Shown piece by piece: positions 44,696-61,489 of a stretch of 64,000 nt of DNA (the stretch's first letter is position 1; each line of letters begins with the position of its first letter). The stretch comes from Akkermansiaceae bacterium (GTDB lineage Bacteria; Verrucomicrobiota; Verrucomicrobiia; Verrucomicrobiales; Akkermansiaceae): positions 1 to 64,000 of the forward strand of contig CAIKDP010000383.1 in NCBI GenBank assembly GCA_903826205.1. Direction: 5' to 3'. The position numbers and the translations under genes are program-made. The notes beneath the pieces were generated by a model. That model had not been told where the DNA came from and did no database searches. It saw nothing but the letters and a program-made list of their open reading frames with translations.

Positions 44696-44755
44696 GATAG
44701 AATTAGTTACCACGCGTAGCGGTTGCTGGCAAGGGTAGACCCGCCACAAAGTTTC

Positions 44756-44795
44756 TGGCACGGATTGTTCAATTATGTTTGAACAATCCGTGCCA
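44756..44795. promoter_or_regulatory. 17-bp perfect palindromic operator at the regulator gene
   Basis: TGGCACGGATTGTTCAA (44756-44772) and TTGAACAATCCGTGCCA (44779-44795) are perfect reverse complements with a 6-nt centre; the core is GTTCA-N8-TGAAC. It lies between the divergent UDP-xylose synthase and GbsR-like genes, a typical autoregulatory position. Related cores occur at 45912-45929 and 56867-56884. Confidence 0.85.
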
Positions 44796-44807
44796 GTTGC
44801 TAAAGTC

Positions 44808-45326
44808 ATGGTCATGAACCGCTTGGCGGAGAACGAGCTAATGGATACGAGTGGGCTTGGCGCGCTTGAGCGGCAGGTTGTGGACTTCTTCGTGGATGGG
44901 GTGAGGGTGTTGGGCTTGCCCAGATCGATAGGCGAGATCTATGGCATGTTGTTCATTTCGCCAGACCCGCTGTCTTTGGATGATCTGGTGCTGCGGCTAG
45001 GCATCAGCAAGGGGTCTGCCAGCCAGGGATTGCGGGCATTGAAACGACTCGGGGCGGTGCGCGAGGCCTCTGTGGGCGAGGAACGTCGCACCTATTTTGA
45101 GCCGGCGGTGGAATTGAAGCGTTTGGTTGGGGGGTTCATCCGTGAGCAGATTCGTCCCCATCTGGAAAGCGGCAAAGCGAAGATCGGGCGTTTGGAGGCG
45201 GCGGTCCGGAGTGAAGCCGACCCCGAACGGAAAAAATTTTTAACGGAGCGGCTGGCGCGGATTGAACAGTGGATGCGAAGCGGCGGTCGCGTGCTTCCCG
45301 TCCTGCAAAAACTTCTAGGGGCATGA
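44808..45326 (+). CDS. GbsR/MarR-family transcriptional regulator
   Basis: The family pattern begins [42 protein letters not shown], followed by the winged helix ([31 protein letters not shown]) and a coiled C-terminal dimerisation segment. Starts at 44775, 44808 and 44814 are in frame; 44775 falls in the loop of the palindrome, so 44808 is preferred, placing the operator upstream. GbsR relatives repress choline/glycine-betaine and other genes. Here its gene overlaps the NusG-paralogue gene (ATGA) and shares an operator motif with downstream polysaccharide units, so it is likely the locus repressor. Confidence 0.85.
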
Positions 45327-45871
45327 ATGGTAGCACCGGTAATGAAGTGGCGTGGTACTGCGTGCGCACGCAGACGAAGCGGGAGCACATCGCTGCCGGG
45401 CACCTGCGCGAACTGGAAGGCATCGAAGTGTTTTGCCCGCGCTTGCGTTATCGCAAGGCCACCCGTCGGGGCACGGTGTGGTGGGTGGAACCGTTGTTTC
45501 CAGGCTATCTGCTAGCGAAGTTCGATCGGCTGGAGGCCGAGCGGGCGGTCACGTTCTGTCAGGGGGTCCGTGGGTTGGTGCGGTTTGGGCCGGAGATTCC
45601 CACCGTTCCGGATGCGTTCGTCCAGAGCTTGCGTGAGGAGATCCGCGGGCATGTCACACCGGAGAATGAAGTTCTCACCCTGACCCCGGCGATTGAATGT
45701 GGCGATGAGGTGGAGGTGGCTCATGGTCCGCTGGTGGGCATGCGTGGGGTGGTGGTGGCCATCGCGCCAGCGGTGGAGCGTGTGAAAATCCTCATGGAAT
45801 TTCTGGGCCAGCCACATGCGGTTGATATGGACTTGTTTTCCATCCTGTTGCCGCGGCGGCCAATCCCCTGA
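45323..45871 (+). CDS. NusG paralogue (RfaH/UpxY/LoaP-like transcription antiterminator)
   Basis: The ATG overlaps the regulator's stop (ATGA). The 182-residue product has a NusG N-terminal domain (WYCVRTQTKREHIAAGHLRELEGIEVFCPRLRYRKATRRGTVWWVEPLFPGYLLAKFD) and a C-terminal KOW segment (GDEVEVAHGPLVGMRGVVVAIAPAVERVKILMEFLGQPH). This is the form of specialised NusG paralogues, which ride with RNA polymerase to overcome termination and polarity in long polysaccharide operons. The neighbouring ops-like sequences at 46044 and 56996 fit such a role. Whether it resembles RfaH, UpxY or LoaP most cannot be decided by eye. Confidence 0.92.
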   Translation: MNGSTGNEVAWYCVRTQTKREHIAAGHLRELEGIEVFCPRLRYRKATRRGTVWWVEPLFPGYLLAKFDRLEAERAVTFCQGVRGLVRFGPEIPTVPDAFVQSLREEIRGHVTPENEVLTLTPAIECGDEVEVAHGPLVGMRGVVVAIAPAVERVKILMEFLGQPHAVDMDLFSILLPRRPIP

Positions 45872-45911
45872 TTTTCGTGCCCATTGGTACCCGCTGCCGA
45901 CGCGCTGAATT

Positions 45912-45929
45912 ATTTAGTTATGGTTGAAC
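45912..45929. promoter_or_regulatory. Degenerate GTTCA-N8-TGAAC site upstream of glf
   Basis: ATTTA-GTTATGGT-TGAAC: the right half is perfect, the left half has diverged, and the surrounding 28 bp match the regulator's palindrome at about 20 positions. It lies 115 bp before the ops-like sequence. Confidence 0.5.
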
Positions 45930-46043
45930 AACCGAGCTGCGTGAGCTAGTTTCGCTGGGGGGAATTCGCAATTATGGTGATTGCCCAAACATTACTGAGT
46001 CCGCGTTGCAGGTTTCCTTCAAGAACCGGGAGGATCGACCAAG

Positions 46044-46055
46044 GGCGGCAGCGTG
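46044..46055 (+). promoter_or_regulatory. ops-like element in the glf leader
   Basis: GGCGGCAGCGTG matches the enterobacterial RfaH ops element GGCGGTAGCGTG at 11 of 12 positions. It is 86 bp upstream of the glf start and immediately downstream of the NusG-paralogue gene. The flanking ACCAAGG is shared with the second site at 56996. Confidence 0.6.
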
Positions 46056-46140
46056 TTTACCCGTGAACCCGAGTTTTTCCGCCACGCATTCCGGCCTCAC
46101 CAGCCCGCTGGGCCGGGGCGAATTTCACTCTGACTCGCGC

Positions 46141-47328
46141 ATGCAACCGGACGTTTCCACGGATTTTCTGATCATCGGAGCAGGTTTTGCCGGCTGTGTT
46201 ATTGGCGAGCGGTTGGCCGCGGCGGGTTGGAAATGTGTGGTTGTGGACCGGCGGGAGCATGTGGGTGGCAATGCCTACGATGAGACCGATGCCGCGGGAG
46301 TCTTGGTTCACCGTTACGGGCCGCATTATTTCCGCACCAACTCGCCGCGGGTTGTCGATTACCTGTCGCGGTTTACCGAGTGGCATGCGGTGGATTACAC
46401 TATCAAGAGTTTTACCCGGGGACGCTATTGGAGTTTTCCGGTCAATCTCAACACGTTTGAGGAATACCTTGGCCGCTCATCCAGCCCCGAGGAATTCGCC
46501 GGGTGGTTGGGGCGGCTTCGGGTGCCGGTCAATGATCCACAAAACTCGGAGGAAATCATCCTCGCGCAGGTCGGCAGGGAGTTTTACGAACTCTTCTTTG
46601 AAAACTACACCCTCAAGCAATGGCGGCGGCATCCCCGCGATCTGGATGCCTCGGTGTGCGGACGCATCCCGCTGCGGACCAACCGGGACGATCGCTATCT
46701 GGCGGAAAACTTTCAGGCGTTGCCCAAGCACGGGTTTGCCGCCATGTTTGGGCGAATGCTTGAGGCGTCACCCGGCTTGGAGCTACATCTGGGGGTGGAT
46801 TTTCAGGAGGCACGCAAGCGCTGGCCATGCAGGCATCTGATTTATACCGGCGCGCTGGATGAATATTTCGCCTACCGGTATGGTCCCTTGCCCTATCGAT
46901 CCCTCCGGTTTGAGGCGGAATCATTTTCGGCCGAACAACTTGTTGGTCGCCGAGCCGTAGCAGGCAAGTCCGGGTATTGGCAACCCGTGATGCAGGTGAA
47001 TTTCCCTGACATGGAAGTCCCGTACACACGGATTGTGGAGATGAAGCATGCGACCGGGCAGACCGTGGATGCCACCACGATTATTCGGGAGTATCCCAAG
47101 GATTGGCAACGGGGCGGGGAACCGTACTATCCGGTTCCGGCACCTGACGCCCGCGTCGCATACCGGCGCTATGCCACACTCGCAGAGACCGAGCCCAATG
47201 TCAGCTTTGTCGGTCGCCTCGCCACCTACCGCTACTATAACATGGATCAAGTCATCGGCATGGCCCTTGCGGAAGCCGAAAAACTCATCCTCCGATACGG
47301 TTCTCAGTCATCCCGAAACATAGTCTAA
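46141..47328 (+). CDS. glf: UDP-galactopyranose mutase
   Basis: The ATG at 46141 gives 395 residues with an FAD-binding FLIIGAGFAGCVIGERLAAAGW, then HVGGNAYDETDAAGVLVHRYGPHYFRTNSPRV, NYTLKQWRRHPRDLDASVCGRIPLRTNRDDRYL and YTRIVEMKHATGQ. These are typical of Glf-type mutases. It interconverts UDP-galactopyranose and UDP-galactofuranose, so galactofuranose may be in the polymer. It heads the first polysaccharide transcription unit behind the ops-like leader. Confidence 0.93.
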   Translation: MQPDVSTDFLIIGAGFAGCVIGERLAAAGWKCVVVDRREHVGGNAYDETDAAGVLVHRYGPHYFRTNSPRVVDYLSRFTEWHAVDYTIKSFTRGRYWSFPVNLNTFEEYLGRSSSPEEFAGWLGRLRVPVNDPQNSEEIILAQVGREFYELFFENYTLKQWRRHPRDLDASVCGRIPLRTNRDDRYLAENFQALPKHGFAAMFGRMLEASPGLELHLGVDFQEARKRWPCRHLIYTGALDEYFAYRYGPLPYRSLRFEAESFSAEQLVGRRAVAGKSGYWQPVMQVNFPDMEVPYTRIVEMKHATGQTVDATTIIREYPKDWQRGGEPYYPVPAPDARVAYRRYATLAETEPNVSFVGRLATYRYYNMDQVIGMALAEAEKLILRYGSQSSRNIV

Positions 47329-49483: not shown

Positions 49484-50599
49484 ATGAAACGCGCGCTAAT
49501 CACCGGTGTTACCGGACAGGATGGCTCCTACCTCGCGGAATTGCTCCTCGAAAAGGGCTACGAGGTGCATGGCATCAAGCGCCGGGCCTCGCTCTTCAAC
49601 ACTCAGCGGATCGATCACATCTACGAGGATCCGCATGTTGAGGATTCGCGCTTTCGCTTGCATTACGGAGATCTCACCGACAGTTCGAATCTCACCCGGA
49701 TTATCAGCGAGGTCCGCCCGGATGAGGTGTACAATCTTGGCGCGCAGTCCCATGTAGCCGTCTCCTTCGAGGCGCCGGAATACACCGCGGACGTCGATGC
49801 CATGGGGACCTTGAGGTTGCTGGAGGCGATCCGGTTCCTGGGGCTGGAAAGCAAGACGCGTTTTTATCAGGCTTCAACCTCGGAGTTATACGGTCTGGTG
49901 CAGGAGAGTCCGCAGAATGAGGCCACCCCGTTTTACCCGCGTTCGCCATATGCCGTGGCCAAGCTTTATGCCTACTGGATCACGGTGAACTACCGTGAGG
50001 CGTACGGGATGTACGCTTGCAACGGGATCCTCTTCAACCATGAGTCGCCGCGCCGCGGTGAGACCTTTGTCACGCGCAAGATCACCCGTGGCTTTGCCAA
50101 TATCGCTCATGGCATCGAACGTTGCCTGTTTCTTGGCAACATGGCGTCACTGCGTGACTGGGGGCATGCCAGGGACTACGTCCGGATGCAATGGATGATG
50201 CTCCAACAAAATCATGCGGAGGACTATGTCATTGCCACCGGCAGACAGCTTGCGGTCCGCGAATTTGTCCGCATGGCCGCGCGCGAAGCCGGTATGGAAC
50301 TCGCCTTTTCCGGCACCGGTGCCAATGAGATTGCCACGGTCATTGCTGTGGATGCCGCCGTGGCTCCCAAGGTCAGTGTTGGCGAGGTTATTGTCAAAGT
50401 GGATCCACGCTATTACCGTCCCACCGAGGTGGATACCCTGCTAGGAGATGCCACCAAGGCGCGGCAGAAGTTAGGTTGGACCCCAGAAATCACTGTCGAA
50501 CAGATGTGTGCCGAAATGGTAGCCGCGGATCTCGAGGATGCCAAACGCCACGCCCTGCTCAAGTCCCATGGCCACCATGTCGCCGTGACCAAAGAATGA
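49484..50599 (+). CDS. gmd: GDP-mannose 4,6-dehydratase
   Basis: The ATG at 49484 gives 371 residues. Motifs are [120 protein letters not shown] and [16 protein letters not shown]. These are strongly conserved in Gmd. It produces GDP-4-keto-6-deoxymannose for Fcl. Its stop overlaps an ATG of the next frame (ATGA). Confidence 0.97.
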
Positions 50600-51708
50600 G
50601 AATGACTCACCCTGTTCCACGTTTTATGAAAAAAGTATTTGTCTCCGGTTGTTACGATATTCTTCACGCTGGCCATATTCAATTTTTTGAAGAGGCACGG
50701 GCGTTGGGTGATTATCTTATTGTGTCATTCGCTTCCGCTGAGGTGTTGTGGCATCACAAGCGCCGCAAGCCCTCGATTCCCGACGACCACAAGCGTGTCT
50801 TGCTGCAAGGACTCCGCGTCATCGATGAAGTGATCGTCACTCAAGGGCACAAGGAGGGATTGGATTTCGAGGAGGATTTCCTGCGCTTGCGTCCGGACTT
50901 TCTCATCGTCACCGACGATGACAAGTACGGTCTGCTCAAACGCGAACTCTGCGCCAAAGTCGGTGCACAGTACGTCATTCTGCCCAAGACCCCGCCGCGC
51001 TTTGAACCCGTCTCCACCAGTTCGATCGTGCGCTGGGTGCAGGCACCCACGGAGGCTCCGCTGCGTGTCGATTTCGCCGGCGGTTGGTTGGATGTTCCGC
51101 GCTTCTCGCGGCCCGGTGAGTTCATTGTCAACTGCGCGATTTCACCACTCGTGTCGCTTCGCGAGTGGCCCTATGAGAAACAGGCGGGTCTTGGCGGTAG
51201 CGGGGCATGGGCGCTCCTCAATGGACGCGATGGGGTCAATTCCGAGCTTGATATGGGAGTGGGTTGGCAGGATCCGGCCGTGATCCGCGAGACCGGACTC
51301 TGTGTCTGGCGTTCCGGCAAGTCACCGGTGCTTGATTTCAAACAGAACGGGGATTTTCTAACGGGACGCCTGGCCATTCTCTGGACGGGGAAGTCACATG
51401 ACACTCCGGGCTTTGCGGACTATGTGCGCGATTATGATCGGATTGCCGAGTCCGGACGCCTCGCCCGCGATGGCGCGCTCCATGCCAATCCGCAACGGCT
51501 GGCTGAGGGGATGTCTGTCTATTATCAAGCCCAGCTCGATGAGGGGATGGAGCCGTTATTGGCGATTCCCGGAGCCATGGCTCATAAATACTGCGGGGGA
51601 GGCTATGGAGGCTATGCGCTCTATCTGTTTGAGGATGCGGCCATGCGCACACAGGCGCTCGCCGCCTCCGAAAATCTTCGTGCCATCGAACCGTTCTGCC
51701 GGATTTGA
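50596..51708 (+). CDS. Fused cytidylyltransferase-like and GHMP-kinase protein
   Basis: The 370-residue product combines two domains. The N-terminal ~140 residues form a nucleotidyltransferase with [28 protein letters not shown] (HxGH) and the TSSIV element. The C-terminal ~215 residues form a GHMP kinase with [28 protein letters not shown] and [15 protein letters not shown]. The fusion could both phosphorylate and nucleotidylate a sugar, as in heptose or fucose salvage routes. The natural sugar is not known. The start used is the ATG overlapping the gmd stop; an ATG at 50626 just before [10 protein letters not shown] is equally possible. Confidence 0.82.
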
Positions 51709-53880: not shown

Positions 53881-53923
53881 CCCCCGCAGGCTGGGACTTC
53901 ATTTGCTGATATCAGGCTTTATT

Positions 53924-54523
53924 ATGAACATACATCCCGAATTCCACCGCTTCCTCAATCGCCACGACAAGGAGGTGCTGCTCCGCCAGCGGGGTCTTGT
54001 CGTTTGGCTCTACGGCCTCTCCGGGTCCGGCAAGTCCACCATCGCCAATGCCGCCGAGCGCGTGTTGCACCGTCAAGGTCGCTTCACTGTCATCCTTGAT
54101 GGCGATAATCTGCGCACCGGGCTCAATTCCAACCTCGGCTTCAGTGATGAAGACCGTCTCGAAAACATTCGGCGCATGGCTGAAATGGCCAAGGTTTTCG
54201 TCTCCCAAGGGATTATCACCTTTGTTTCTGCCATCACCCCGCGCGGCGAACTCCGCGACTTGGCTCGCGGCTTGCTCGGCGCGGACTTGTTCGAGGTGTA
54301 TGTCGAGGCCACCTACGAAACCTGTGAGAAACGCGACGTCAAAGGCCTCTACGCCAAGGCCGCTCGTGGCGAAATCGCACATTTCACCGGCAAGGACGGA
54401 TCGTTCGAACCCCCGCATCATCCAGCCCTCGTTCTAAACACCGAAACCATCTCGGTTCAAGATGCCGCCTTTGAGCTTCTCGAAGCTATCCAAGACCGGA
54501 TTTCCCTCAATCCGTCTTTGTAA
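53924..54523 (+). CDS. cysC: Adenylyl-sulfate kinase
   Basis: A 199-residue protein with the P-loop GLSGSGKS (residues 31-38), LDGDNLRTGLNSNLGFSDEDRLENIRRMAEMAKVF, the AITPRGELRDLAR region, FEVYVEATYETCEKRDVKGLYAKAARGEIAHFTG and PPHHPALVLNTE. It phosphorylates APS to PAPS, the sulfate donor for sulfotransferases. It precedes cysD and cysN and lies within polysaccharide genes, which suggests sulfation of the polymer. No sulfotransferase gene is visible in the window. Confidence 0.95.
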   Translation: MNIHPEFHRFLNRHDKEVLLRQRGLVVWLYGLSGSGKSTIANAAERVLHRQGRFTVILDGDNLRTGLNSNLGFSDEDRLENIRRMAEMAKVFVSQGIITFVSAITPRGELRDLARGLLGADLFEVYVEATYETCEKRDVKGLYAKAARGEIAHFTGKDGSFEPPHHPALVLNTETISVQDAAFELLEAIQDRISLNPSL

Positions 54524-54575
54524 CTCACTTAAAACGAGCATACGTTACAAAAACGATCTACAAACAAATTAATTC

Positions 54576-54604
54576 TTGACCACCTGGGAATTGTGGCCTA
54601 ATTT
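54576..54604 (+). promoter_or_regulatory. Probable promoter for cysD-cysN
   Basis: TTGACC (54576-54581), 17 bp, TAATTT (54599-54604), in a 140-bp AT-rich gap between cysC and cysD. The start codon is 60 bp downstream. Confidence 0.45.
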
Positions 54605-54663
54605 CCTGCCGCGCCGTGGGTGTCTAACCCCAGCGGCCGAGTTGTCCCACTGTTCCTTGTGCC

Positions 54664-55569
54664 ATGCCCAATTATCAATTCAATCACCTCGACCAACTTG
54701 AAGCCGAGGCTATTTTCGTGTTGCGGGAAACTGCGGCTCAGTTTGAAAACCCCGCGCTGCTTTTTTCGGGTGGCAAGGATTCCATTGTGATGGCGTGGCT
54801 TGCGCGCAAGGCCTTTTGGCCGGCACGCATGCCCTTTCCGCTGGTCCATGTGGATACCGGCCACAATTTCCCCGAAACGATGGCCTATCGGGACGAGTTC
54901 GTCGATCTCATGGCGGCCCGTCTCATCGTCGGATCAGTGCAGGCATCCATCGATGCCGGACGTGTGGTGGAAGAAAAGGGCGCCACGGCCTCGCGCAACA
55001 AATTGCAGACCGTCACCCTGCTCGATACCATCGAAAAACACCAATATGACGCCTGCTTGGGCGGCGGACGCCGTGACGAGGAAAAGGCCCGCGCCAAAGA
55101 GCGCTTCTTTTCCCATCGGGATGACTTCGGCCAGTGGGATCCGAAAAACCAGCGACCGGAACTCTGGAACCTCTTCAATGGCCGTAAAAACCCTGGTGAG
55201 CACTTCCGCATCTTTCCTCTCTCGAACTTCACCGAGATGGACATTTGGATGTATATCAAACGTGAGAACATCCCGCTGCCCTCCATCTATTTTGCCCACG
55301 AGCGCGAGGTCTTCGAACGCAACGGCATGTTGCTCGCCGTGACCGATTTTCTCTTCTCCCAGTCACACGAGACCGTCACCTCGCGGGTCGTTCGCTTCCG
55401 CACCATCGGCGACGCCACCTGCACCGGGGCCGTCGAATCCTCGGCCTCTACCATTGACGAAGTCATCGCCGAGGTCTCCGCCGCCCGCCAAACCGAACGC
55501 GGCACCCGCTCCGACGACAAACGCTCCGAAACCGCCATGGAGGACCGGAAGAAAGAAGGGTATTTTTAA
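54664..55569 (+). CDS. cysD: Sulfate adenylyltransferase subunit 2
   Basis: A 301-residue PAPS-reductase-like protein with the PP-loop ALLFSGGKDSIVMAWLARKAF, PFPLVHVDTGHNFPE, GGGRRDEEKARAKERFFSHRDDFGQWDPKNQRPELWNLFNGR and HFRIFPLSNFTEMDIWMYI. It is the adenylylating subunit that, with CysN, makes APS from sulfate and ATP. Its stop is separated by one base from the cysN start. Confidence 0.97.
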   Translation: MPNYQFNHLDQLEAEAIFVLRETAAQFENPALLFSGGKDSIVMAWLARKAFWPARMPFPLVHVDTGHNFPETMAYRDEFVDLMAARLIVGSVQASIDAGRVVEEKGATASRNKLQTVTLLDTIEKHQYDACLGGGRRDEEKARAKERFFSHRDDFGQWDPKNQRPELWNLFNGRKNPGEHFRIFPLSNFTEMDIWMYIKRENIPLPSIYFAHEREVFERNGMLLAVTDFLFSQSHETVTSRVVRFRTIGDATCTGAVESSASTIDEVIAEVSAARQTERGTRSDDKRSETAMEDRKKEGYF

Positions 55570-55570
55570 C

Positions 55571-56815
55571 ATGGACTTATTACGCTTTAGCACCGCCGGC
55601 TCCGTCGATGACGGCAAATCCACCCTCATCGGGCGCTTGCTCTATGATTCGAAATCGATCTTCGAGGACCAACTCTTGGCCATGGAAGAATCCTCGCGCC
55701 GGCGCGGCGACGAGAACGTGAACCTCGCGCTTCTAACCGACGGACTCAAGGCCGAGCGCGAGCAGGGGATCACCATCGATGTGGCTTATCGCTATTTTGC
55801 CACGCCGAAACGCAAGTTCATCATCGCCGACACCCCGGGTCATATCCAGTACACGCGCAACATGGTCACTGGCGCATCGACGGCCAATCTATCCATCATT
55901 CTCATCGATGCCCGCAAGGGCGTTATCGAGCAGACCAAGCGGCACAGCTTTGTGGCCAACCTCCTGCGCATCCAACATCTGGTGGTTGCCGTCAACAAGA
56001 TGGATCTCGTCGGCTTCTCTGAGGACGTTTACAACCAAATCATCGGGGATTTCCGGGAATTCGCCTCGCGTCTCGACAACATTGTTGAAATCACCTTCAT
56101 CCCGCTTTCCGCACTCAATGGTGACAATGTCGTGGATAAATCCACCAACATGCCATGGTATGAGGGCCCCACCCTGCTCTATCACCTCGAAAACGTCTAT
56201 GTCGGCAGTGAGGAAAACCATGTGGAGGCGCGCTTCCCCGTGCAGTGGGTTGTGCGCCCGATGAGTGATGAGTGGCATGACTTCCGTGGGTACGCCGGGC
56301 GCGTGGCGGGCGGGGTTTTCAAGCCCGGGGATGCCGTCACGGTGCTCCCTTCCGGGTTCTCCACCCGCATCAAGGCCATCCACAGTCCCGGCGGCGACCT
56401 CAAGGAGGCCGCGGCTCCCCAATCCGTTTGCCTCACCCTCACGGATGAGATCGATATTTCCCGTGGTGACATGCTGGTGAAGGGAAATAATCCGCCACAG
56501 GTCGGCCAGGACATCGAGGCCATGGTGTGCTGGTTTTCCCCGCGTGCCATGCCCCCGCGTGCCAAACTCGTCCTGCGCCATACCACCCAGGAAACCAAGG
56601 CCGTGGTCCAAGCAGTTAGGTACCACGTCGATATTAACACGCTGCACAAGATCGAGGGTGTCGATGGCTTTGCCATGAACGACATCGGCCGCATCAGCTT
56701 GCGCACCGCCATGCCGTTATTCTACGATTCCTACCGCCGCAACCGCCAAACCGGGTCGTTTATCCTCATCGACCCCGGCACCAACGAAACCGTCGCCGCT
56801 GGCATGATCGTTTGA
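55571..56815 (+). CDS. cysN: Sulfate adenylyltransferase subunit 1 (GTPase)
   Basis: The ATG at 55571 gives 414 residues. G1 is GSVDDGKST, with LTDGLKAEREQGITIDVAYRYF (G2), DTPGH (G3) and NKMDLV (G4), and two C-terminal beta-barrel domains. It lacks a fused kinase (CysNC), consistent with a separate cysC upstream. The GTPase activity drives APS synthesis by CysD. Confidence 0.97.
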   Translation: MDLLRFSTAGSVDDGKSTLIGRLLYDSKSIFEDQLLAMEESSRRRGDENVNLALLTDGLKAEREQGITIDVAYRYFATPKRKFIIADTPGHIQYTRNMVTGASTANLSIILIDARKGVIEQTKRHSFVANLLRIQHLVVAVNKMDLVGFSEDVYNQIIGDFREFASRLDNIVEITFIPLSALNGDNVVDKSTNMPWYEGPTLLYHLENVYVGSEENHVEARFPVQWVVRPMSDEWHDFRGYAGRVAGGVFKPGDAVTVLPSGFSTRIKAIHSPGGDLKEAAAPQSVCLTLTDEIDISRGDMLVKGNNPPQVGQDIEAMVCWFSPRAMPPRAKLVLRHTTQETKAVVQAVRYHVDINTLHKIEGVDGFAMNDIGRISLRTAMPLFYDSYRRNRQTGSFILIDPGTNETVAAGMIV

Positions 56816-56866
56816 TGCCTCGCCCGGGTGACAATAATTATGGCGCAGATCGTACCCGATAAATTC

Positions 56867-56884
56867 GTTCATTTTTTATTGAAC
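56867..56884. promoter_or_regulatory. GTTCA-N8-TGAAC site upstream of the second dehydrogenase unit
   Basis: GTTCA (56867-56871), eight bases, TGAAC (56880-56884), with the extended right flank TTGAACAAT identical to the regulator's own palindrome. It is 112 bp before the ops-like sequence. Confidence 0.6.
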
Positions 56885-56995
56885 AATACAAAATACATGG
56901 CAGACTGGGGCGGCAGCCACGTGCCATGGTCTGCGGGTTTCCATTTTCCGAATTGACTTGCAGGTTTTTTACCGGTAGCGGTGGAAGCAACCAAG

Positions 56996-57007
56996 GGCGG
57001 TAGCATA
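56996..57007 (+). promoter_or_regulatory. ops-like element in the leader of the gene at 57037
   Basis: GGCGGTAGCATA matches the RfaH ops element GGCGGTAGCGTG at 10 of 12 positions, and its flank ACCAAGG is shared with the first site. It lies 30 bp before the start codon. A hairpin with arms GCAGAC/GTCTGC lies upstream in the same leader. Confidence 0.6.
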
Positions 57008-57036
57008 ATCCATCATTTTCAACAGTGGTTGCTTCT

Positions 57037-58353
57037 ATGAAAATCTCGGAGAAATTCACCGATCAGCAGGCGGTTATCGGTGTAATTGGCCTCGGCTATG
57101 TCGGCTTGCCTCTGGTTCTTGCTTACGCCCATAAGGGTTTTGGTGTGATCGGCTTTGATATCGACATTTCGAAAATCGTCCATCTCCACGCCGGCACCAG
57201 TTACATCAAGCACATTCCAAGCGAGTTGATTGCCGCCGCCCGTGCGTCCGGTAAACTTGATGCCACCACGGATTTTTCCCGCATCAAGGATTGCGATGCC
57301 ATCATCCTTTGTGTTCCGACGCCCCTGGATGATCACCTCGAACCCGATCTGAGCTTCGTCACCGACACGCTGGATGCCGTCGTTCCCCACCTCAGGGCTG
57401 GTCAAATCCTCAGTCTGGAAAGCTCCACCTATCCCGGCACCACCGAGGAAGAGGTCGTTTCCCGCGTCGTGGCCGCCGGGTTCATTGTCGGTGAATCCGT
57501 CTTCGTTGTTTATTCCCCGGAGCGCGAAGACCCTGGCAATCCGCATTTCGCCGCCACCAACATTCCCAAAGTCGTGGGGGGACACACTCCGGCCTGTCTG
57601 CACGCAGGCACCGCGCTCTATGGCGCGGCCTTTGACAAGGTCGTCCCCGTGTCCTCCACCCAGGTCGCCGAACTCTCAAAATTGTTAGAAAACATCTATC
57701 GTGCGGTCAACATCGGACTCATCAACGAGCTGAAAATCGCGGCGGATCGCATGGGTATTGATATTTGGGAAGTCATCCGCGCGGCCGCGACCAAGCCCTT
57801 TGGTTTCACGCCTTTCTACCCCGGCCCTGGCCTTGGCGGCCATTGCATCCCGATCGACCCCTATTATCTCACTTGGAAAGCCCGCGAATTCGGCGTGCAC
57901 ACCCGCTTCATCGAGCTTGCCGGAGAGATCAACCGTGCGATGCCCGAATACGTCGTTCACCGCACGATGACGGCTCTCAACTCCCGCGGCAAGGCCGTCA
58001 TGGGCAGTCGTATCCTGCTCCTGGGCCTGGCATACAAGGCCAACGTCGATGACATGCGCGAATCTCCGACCTTTGCCTTGTTGGACCGCTTCAGCGAGCT
58101 GGGTGCCCAAGTCACATATCACGACCCGCATGTTCCGGTCATTGGTCCAACCCGTGAGCATTCGCACTGGGCCGGCACCCGCTCGGTGGAACTCTCTCCG
58201 GAAACCCTGGCTGCCAGCGATTGTGTGGTCATTGCCACCCATCACGCGGCCTTTGATCTGCTCATGCTTGCCAAACACACCGCGCTCATCATCGATACCC
58301 GCAATGCCATGGCCACCGTGGCCACCCAGCCCGGCCAAGTCGTCAAAGCCTGA
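57037..58353 (+). CDS. Nucleotide-sugar dehydrogenase (UDP-N-acetylhexosamine 6-dehydrogenase type)
   Basis: The ATG at 57037 gives 438 residues with [119 protein letters not shown] (catalytic Cys) and [16 protein letters not shown]. These resemble WbpA/TviB/WecC-type enzymes that oxidise UDP-N-acetylglucosamine or similar sugars to uronic acids. The exact sugar is not determinable. It heads the second transcription unit behind an ops-like leader. Confidence 0.9.
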
Positions 58354-60627: not shown

Positions 60628-61489
60628 ATGAAAGGCATCCTGCTTGCCGGCGGTTCTGGCACCCACCTCTACCCGGTCACCATGGCCATCAGCAAGCAAT
60701 TGCTGCCGGTCTATGACAAGCCGATGGTCTATTACCCGCTGTCGGTGCTCATGCTGGCCGGCATCCGGGACATCCTGGTCATTTCGACGCCGCTCGACCT
60801 GCCGCTTTACAAGCGCCTGCTGGGGGACGGCTCACGTTTTGGCATCCGTCTCAGATACGCAGAACAAGCGTCGCCTGACGGGTTGGCGCAGGCCTTTCTC
60901 ATTGGCGAGGAATTCATCGACGGTAGCTCTTGCGCGTTGGTTCTCGGCGACAACATCTTTTACGGCCAGGGCTTCTCGGCCAAGCTCAAACTCGCCGCGG
61001 AGCGCACCAGCGGTGCCGCCGTCTTCGGCTAAGAAGTCCACGATCCCCAGCGCTTTGGTGTCGTCGAATTCGATGCCAACGGCAAAGCCATCTCGATCGA
61101 AGAAAAAACCCGCCAATCCCAAATCCAGATATGCCGTCACCGGACTCTACTTTTACGACCGTGACGTCGTCGCCATCGCCAAGGACGTCAAGCTGTCCGC
61201 CCGCGGTGAACTCGAAATCACCAGCGTCAACCGCGCCTACCTCGAACGTGGCGACTTGAACGTCGAACTCCTCGGCCGTGGCCACACCTGGCTCGATACC
61301 GGAACCCACGAAGCGCTGTTGGAGGCATCCCAATTCGTCCGCACCATCGAACACCACCAAGGCTTCAAGGTCGCCTGCCTCGAGGAAATCGCTTGGCGCA
61401 ATGGCTGGTTGGACGCCACCCAACTCCAAGCCTCGATCAAGGCTTTGGGAAAAACGCCTTATGCCGACTACTTGCGGACGCTGGGGTGA
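60628..61489 (+). pseudogene. rfbA: Glucose-1-phosphate thymidylyltransferase, disrupted
   Basis: The reading frame starts [18 protein letters not shown], in which the Arg of the substrate-binding GGxGTRL is replaced by His13. It ends at a TAA at 61030-61032 where a tyrosine codon is expected ([16 protein letters not shown] continues after the stop). A further shift of one base occurs at the six-A run 61103-61108; the remainder ([18 protein letters not shown] to YADYLRTLG) is good RfbA sequence in another frame. Three independent lesions make a functional product unlikely unless the sequence contains errors. The product would normally make dTDP-glucose for rfbB. Confidence 0.9.

Follow-up and report, generated by a model that had tools for sequence, protein, structure and literature searches.

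An Overlapping GbsR-Type Regulator Gene and RfaH-Like nusG Paralogue Suggest Two-Layer Control of Polysaccharide Operons in Verrucomicrobiota

Main Finding

Analysis of a 64,000-nucleotide stretch of an Akkermansiaceae genome (hereafter the window) reveals the gene of a GbsR-type regulator overlapping that of an RfaH-like specialised NusG paralogue. The operator found at this gene pair recurs in the polysaccharide locus behind it, followed each time by an RNA hairpin and a close match to the ops element of E. coli (Table 1). Together, these parts probably form a cassette that controls polysaccharide operons in two layers, combining a GbsR-type switch of initiation with an RfaH-like antiterminator loaded at hairpin/ops. 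The gene pair, the operator, the promoter geometry, the covariation of the hairpin, the identity of ops and the co-occurrence of these elements are read directly from the sequences. The parts are of known kinds; their combination was not found in the literature searched.

Table 1. Position of the genes and signals discussed in the text (window coordinates).
Feature	Position	Strand	Description
Perfect palindrome	44755..44796	.	18-nt arms, 6-nt spacer; O1 inside
Operator O1	44765..44786	+	TTGTTCA-N8-TGAACAA, 0 mismatches
-35 box TTGAAC	44779-44784	+	right half of O1
-10 box TAAAGT	44801..44806	+	16 nt past TTGAAC; 7 nt before ATG 44814
GbsR/Mj223-type regulator	44814..45326	+	corrected start, 170 aa
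RfaH-like specialised NusG paralogue	45323..45871	+	182 aa, ATGA overlap with regulator gene
Operator O2	45910..45931	+	2 mismatches; just behind nusG gene
First leader RNA hairpin	46011..46040	+	GGT...ACC outer pairs, covarying 7-bp stem; R2 hit 46009-46057, 52.8 bits
First ops element GGCGGCAGCGTG	46044..46055	+	11/12 identical to E. coli ops GGCGGTAGCGTG
UDP-galactopyranose mutase gene	46141..47328	+	first behind O2/ops; PF03275, 1.6e-64; polysaccharide operon start
Operator O3	56865..56886	+	1 mismatch; inside polysaccharide locus
Second leader hairpin	56963..56992	+	R2 hit 56961-57009, 28.1 bits
Second ops element GGCGGTAGCATA	56996..57007	+	131 nt past O3
UDP-glucose/GDP-mannose dehydrogenase family gene	57037..58353	+	first behind O3/ops; PF03721

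The Gene Pair and Its Promoter

The two open reading frames (44775-45326 and 45323-45871) share the ATGA at 45323-45326, in agreement with the preliminary description, and the same overlap is present in 47 of 65 distinct gbsR-nusG pairs. The first protein had been called GbsR/MarR-like. This identity is borne out by sequence comparison, in which the best solved relative is Mj223 (1KU9, E 2e-14), and by the AlphaFold model (pLDDT 88), for which 1KU9 is again the best structural match (Z 15.0 over 150 residues). Homology and fold extend over the full length, as in members of the GbsR/Mj223 family. The structure of Mj223 has also been the template for modelling GbsR (PMC6207618). The regulator stays below the cut-off of the NCBIfam CudC equivalog (36.6 of 218), as would be expected of a protein with another function.

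Upstream of the regulator gene, an alignment of the 65 distinct relatives retains the operator core TTGTTCA-N8-TGAACAA with at most two mismatches in 56 of them, and within it GTTCA and TTGAAC are near-invariant. A TAnnnT motif follows TTGAAC by 16-18 nt in 28 of the 65, whereas the remaining spacings between 5 and 39 together account for five occurrences. In 25 of the 28 loci having this motif, the start codon is located 6-8 nt past it. This geometry of -35, -10 and start codon indicates that TTGAAC doubles as the -35 box and that the palindrome is a predicted operator lying over it.

For the regulator gene, the correct start is probably 44814 and not 44775, which falls inside the palindrome: in many relatives, in-frame stops interrupt the stretch from the palindrome to codon 14, the position of the conserved start codon. 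The same stops rule out coding conservation of the first 13 codons. In the window, another in-frame ATG is present at 44808, only 1 nt past the -10 box; the conserved one is at 44814. From its sequence, the gbsR-nusG message is probably leaderless, beginning near this start codon. A role of the palindrome as an RNA terminator or as a start-codon hairpin was rejected, since transcription would begin near 44814, past the palindrome, and since relatives retain just the operator core. Rfam yields for it just a chance match to mir-219, below threshold.

A consensus promoter scan found no promoter-like site between the overlapping genes, and thus no sign of independent promoters. The idea of joint transcription behind a perfect palindrome stands as far as the palindrome and the lack of an internal promoter-like site are concerned, but the palindrome is to be placed upstream of the probable start at 44814, as an operator with -35 box.

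Recurrence of the Operator in the Window

Three operator copies with at most two mismatches are found in the 64 kb, compared to 0.18 expected, and none of 100 shuffles reaches three. The sequence ACCAAGGGCGGYAGC, which has ops as its core, stands about 132 nt past each of O2 and O3. A recognisable operator is present in 22 of 44 ops leaders behind nusG, about half being without one, and in these 22 leaders the spacing between operator and ops is 126-139 nt. At three mismatches, loose pattern matches are near background across the window's genome (125 against 120 in the control) and were not used as evidence.

In the leaders behind nusG of the 65 relatives, O2-type operators have the core GTTCATTTTNNATTGAAC, unlike the O1-type, and are mostly without TAnnnT at 16-18 nt. 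Most of them have no consensus -10 box, so repression at these second operators is putative and activation may occur instead. The GbsR-like protein could then be a dual regulator, repressing its own pair and activating the polysaccharide promoters from O2 and O3, with the paralogue acting as in our main proposal. The correctly spaced -10 box of the O1-type sites and the different core of the O2-type sites would both fit such a division. We consider it unlikely: the O2 of the window itself carries TTGAAC (45924-45929) followed at spacing 17 by TAGTTT (45947-45952), and the family members studied, GbsR, OpcR, OpuAR and CydE, are described as repressors (PMC6207618, PMC7396694).

Some further observations concern the genes of the locus. 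An adenylylsulfate-kinase-like ORF and CysD/CysN-like ORFs, named from their translations only, are located at 53903-56815 inside the polysaccharide locus, with O3 and its hairpin/ops coming after them, and suggest a sulfated polysaccharide. The ORF at 50476-51708 reads as a nucleotidyltransferase fused to a GHMP-kinase-like part. The NTP-transferase (RmlA-like) gene at 60628-61489 appears split over two frames, which may reflect a pseudogene or an assembly error; contig C215 has an intact paralogue of it, preceded by a hairpin/ops leader (L204).

The Hairpin and ops Signal

The ops consensus of these leaders, GGCGGYAGCGTG, equals the recruitment site of RfaH in E. coli with Y (C or T) at position 6. 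The E. coli ops12 is GGCGGTAGCGTG (PMC5995543). An ops element lies at most 600 nt behind nusG in 42 of the 65 relatives, with a background of the core of 0.07 per kb elsewhere. Positions C9, T11 and G12 are conserved in 93, 84 and 70 of 94 sites, though they were not used for picking the sites. In ops, pausing is induced by the dinucleotide TG at positions 11-12.

Directly 5' of ops, a hairpin is formed by an invariant GGT/ACC pairing around a stem of 5-9 bp, the sequence of which is almost freely variable. It ends 3 nt before the ops pause sequence. As a MAFFT alignment of the mixed hairpin lengths misaligns the arms, a partner-swap test and length-matched alignments were used instead. The stem score averages 13.7 over 80 unselected sites, compared to 8.0 +/- 0.4 when the arms are swapped between sites. 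In the two gap-free alignments, 94 and 98% of the cells are paired and 53 and 35 cells show compensatory double changes, against 17.7 and 9.6 after shuffling (0 of 500 shuffles), with 12 same-length sites omitted, most of which were judged by eye to be unpaired in that register (L058, L139, L141, L149; L093, L094, L102, L127, L134, L135, L136, L153). On account of this omission, the unselected partner-swap figure is the safer one.

A terminator scan found no terminator-like site in the leader, and no Rfam family reaches its gathering score on it.

A covariance model of the hairpin/ops leader (R2) was used for wider searches; its E-values are rough, and hits with E above about 1e-4 are weak and may be due to chance. 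Five strong R2 sites are found in the window's genome (G000): two in the window (contig C383) and one each on contigs C215, C307 and C38. The site on C215 precedes an NTP-transferase gene and that on C38 a sugar-transferase gene. No operator was found at the leaders on C215, C307 and C38, so the reach of the paralogue appears wider than that of the repressor: it probably acts in trans on at least five leaders of this genome, some of them beyond the repressor's reach.

The NusG Paralogue

The second protein of the pair had been taken for a NusG paralogue, and this holds: it scores 49 bits against Pfam NusG and has the NGN and KOW domains of a specialised NusG/Spt5 protein, being a second copy besides a separate housekeeping-type NusG in the genome. 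Its scores remain below the NCBIfam cut-offs for RfaH (TIGR01955; 68.5 of 144.5 bits), LoaP (NF033641; 50.1 of 125 bits) and UpxY (NF033644; 60.6 of 100 bits). For the N-terminal domain, the best structural match is RfaH on the ops-paused complex (Z 13.1).

In RfaH, ops is read by residues K10, H20, R23 and R73. Among 92 paralogues, H20 is kept in 57, and the other positions are frequently changed (K10 to Q in 67, R23 to E in 44 and R73 to Q in 47). With the contact residues mostly changed, the paralogue is, judged by its sequence, not RfaH. The changes would be in keeping with the looser base 6 of ops; no clear link was found between residue 17 of the paralogue and this base. For the KOW domain, the AlphaFold model shows a beta-barrel (pLDDT 86.8, pTM 0.69), a type of prediction which can miss a fold switch.

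Distribution in Verrucomicrobiota

Among 190 Verrucomicrobiales genomes, 150 have the NusG paralogue and 85 the GbsR-like gene, and all 85 GbsR-positive genomes also have the paralogue. The neighbourhood survey proposed in the preliminary description places the two genes side by side in 58 of these 85 genomes, and in 19 genomes of other orders as well; the pairing is therefore far from confined to the window's genome. In the remaining 27 of the 85 the genes are apart. This separation is what would be expected if two unrelated regulators had merely become fixed side by side in a polysaccharide island, with no functional coupling. Such operon drift is already disfavoured and seems very improbable to us: in most of the loci inspected that have the genes separated, an operator and a hairpin/ops leader are still found next to the GbsR-like gene, and outside the order all 41 GbsR-like genes found near a hit of the RNA model are on its strand. 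As the GbsR-like gene adjoins hairpin/ops also where the paralogue is encoded elsewhere, the tie between GbsR and ops is, at the level of gene order, broader than the gene overlap.

Outside the order, the R2 model was the sole query of a class-wide search. A GbsR-like gene is present at most 2.5 kb from 41 of the 93 R2 sites listed, and a paralogue gene at most 2.5 kb from 13 of them. Two loci from another family of the class (L214 and L215) have the complete cassette: the GbsR gene overlaps the NusG gene by ATGA, and hairpin/ops comes next, followed by an ABC-type export permease-like ORF. Other classes of the phylum have the leader as well.

Alternatively, hairpin/ops could serve for pausing or attenuation and be recognised by RNA polymerase with the housekeeping NusG or the ribosome, the paralogue not being its reader. 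The ops sequence itself is a consensus pause for diverse RNA polymerases (PMC5995543, PMC7593976), neither the GbsR-like gene nor that of the paralogue lies within some 1.5 kb of hairpin/ops at two loci from other classes (L240 and L241), and 11 genomes with listed R2 sites have neither gene at the thresholds used. Against this stand 47 genomes outside the order that have both R2 sites and the paralogue, as well as the orientation of the 13 sites close to a paralogue gene, each of which shares the strand of that gene. Moreover, genus g3 of the window's own family (f1), probably Akkermansia itself, has neither a GbsR-like gene nor the NusG paralogue, and it has no strong hairpin/ops site. We regard a signal read independently of the paralogue as improbable.

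Proposed Mechanism

In the two-layer reading that we prefer, a dimer of the GbsR-type protein would bind TTGTTCA-N8-TGAACAA at its own leaderless gbsR-nusG promoter, where this site overlaps the -35 box, and would also bind the operators that recur before polysaccharide operons. A signal or effector altering this binding would switch initiation of the antiterminator gene and of the target operons together. On the target transcripts, about 130 nt past the operator, RNA polymerase would form the hairpin and pause at ops. The RfaH-like paralogue would be recruited at this pause, displace the housekeeping NusG and carry RNA polymerase through the long operon, preventing early termination. The gene overlap would ensure co-expression of repressor and antiterminator by translational coupling. 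DNA binding, the direction of regulation, recruitment, antitermination and the effector are all deduced here from sequence. It had been suggested that control of initiation and elongation is coupled at one polysaccharide locus; this idea gains strength from the further operator copies that precede polysaccharide operons, each accompanied by an ops-like leader, with the coupling in function itself still a prediction.

A more far-reaching version is put forward tentatively, as we give it somewhat less than an even chance. The cassette might represent a third mode of recruitment, in which the paralogue reads a covarying hairpin and the ops 3 nt later, without the alpha-to-beta switch of RfaH, and, throughout the phylum, is coupled to a dedicated GbsR-type switch governing initiation at those operons.

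Comparison with Known Systems

Among the open-access papers searched, those on GbsR and NusG, on RfaH and Verrucomicrobi, and on exosortase and NusG describe no such pairing, in line with the preliminary description, which knew of no GbsR-type partner for NusG paralogues; subscription papers could hold one. The recruitment of specialised NusG paralogues encoded within their operons has been stated to be unknown (PMC7593976). With a near-identical ops in another phylum, beside a strongly covarying RNA hairpin and a conserved partner gene, it becomes possible to test how ops recruitment evolved. The operator and the hairpin/ops model also provide an annotation handle for polysaccharide regulons in Verrucomicrobiota.

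The regulator resembles the GbsR family (GbsR, OpcR, OpuAR, CydE; Mj223) in its winged helix and helical dimerisation part. Known members regulate osmolyte or respiratory genes (PMC6207618), whereas the regulator described here would act on polysaccharide operons and an antiterminator. The aromatic cage for choline or betaine belongs to the osmostress branch of the family and is reported to be absent from other branches (PMC6207618).

With the RfaH/ops system of E. coli, the paralogue shares the N-terminal fold, long polysaccharide operons and several unlinked leaders per genome, and the target leaders contain the near-identical ops element (GGCGGYAGCGTG) expected of RfaH targets. RfaH has been reported to be mostly limited to Proteobacteria and to have no common gene neighbours (PMC7593976), whereas the paralogue gene sits beside, and overlaps, that of a GbsR-type regulator. 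The leaders differ by the additional covarying hairpin directly 5' of ops and by C or T at position 6. The KOW domain of RfaH is an autoinhibited alpha-hairpin, whereas the one here is predicted to be beta.

LoaP, which has been described as unique among bacterial NusG-like proteins in being known to bind a specific RNA, acts in Bacillus velezensis with the dfn hairpin; there, too, the leader targeted by a NusG paralogue contains an RNA hairpin (PMC12691694). This hairpin is of the UNCG type, the pause lies farther away from it and an intrinsic terminator is present; in the leaders described here, a freely varying stem ends 3 nt before the ops pause. UpxY and UpxZ of the capsule loci of Bacteroides fragilis are another case in which a polysaccharide locus has a NusG paralogue linked with a further regulator gene. 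The role of UpxZ is to interfere with other upx operons (PMC7593976), whereas the partner here is a GbsR-type predicted DNA-binding protein encoded before the paralogue, of which there is usually one per genome and not, as with UpxY, many.
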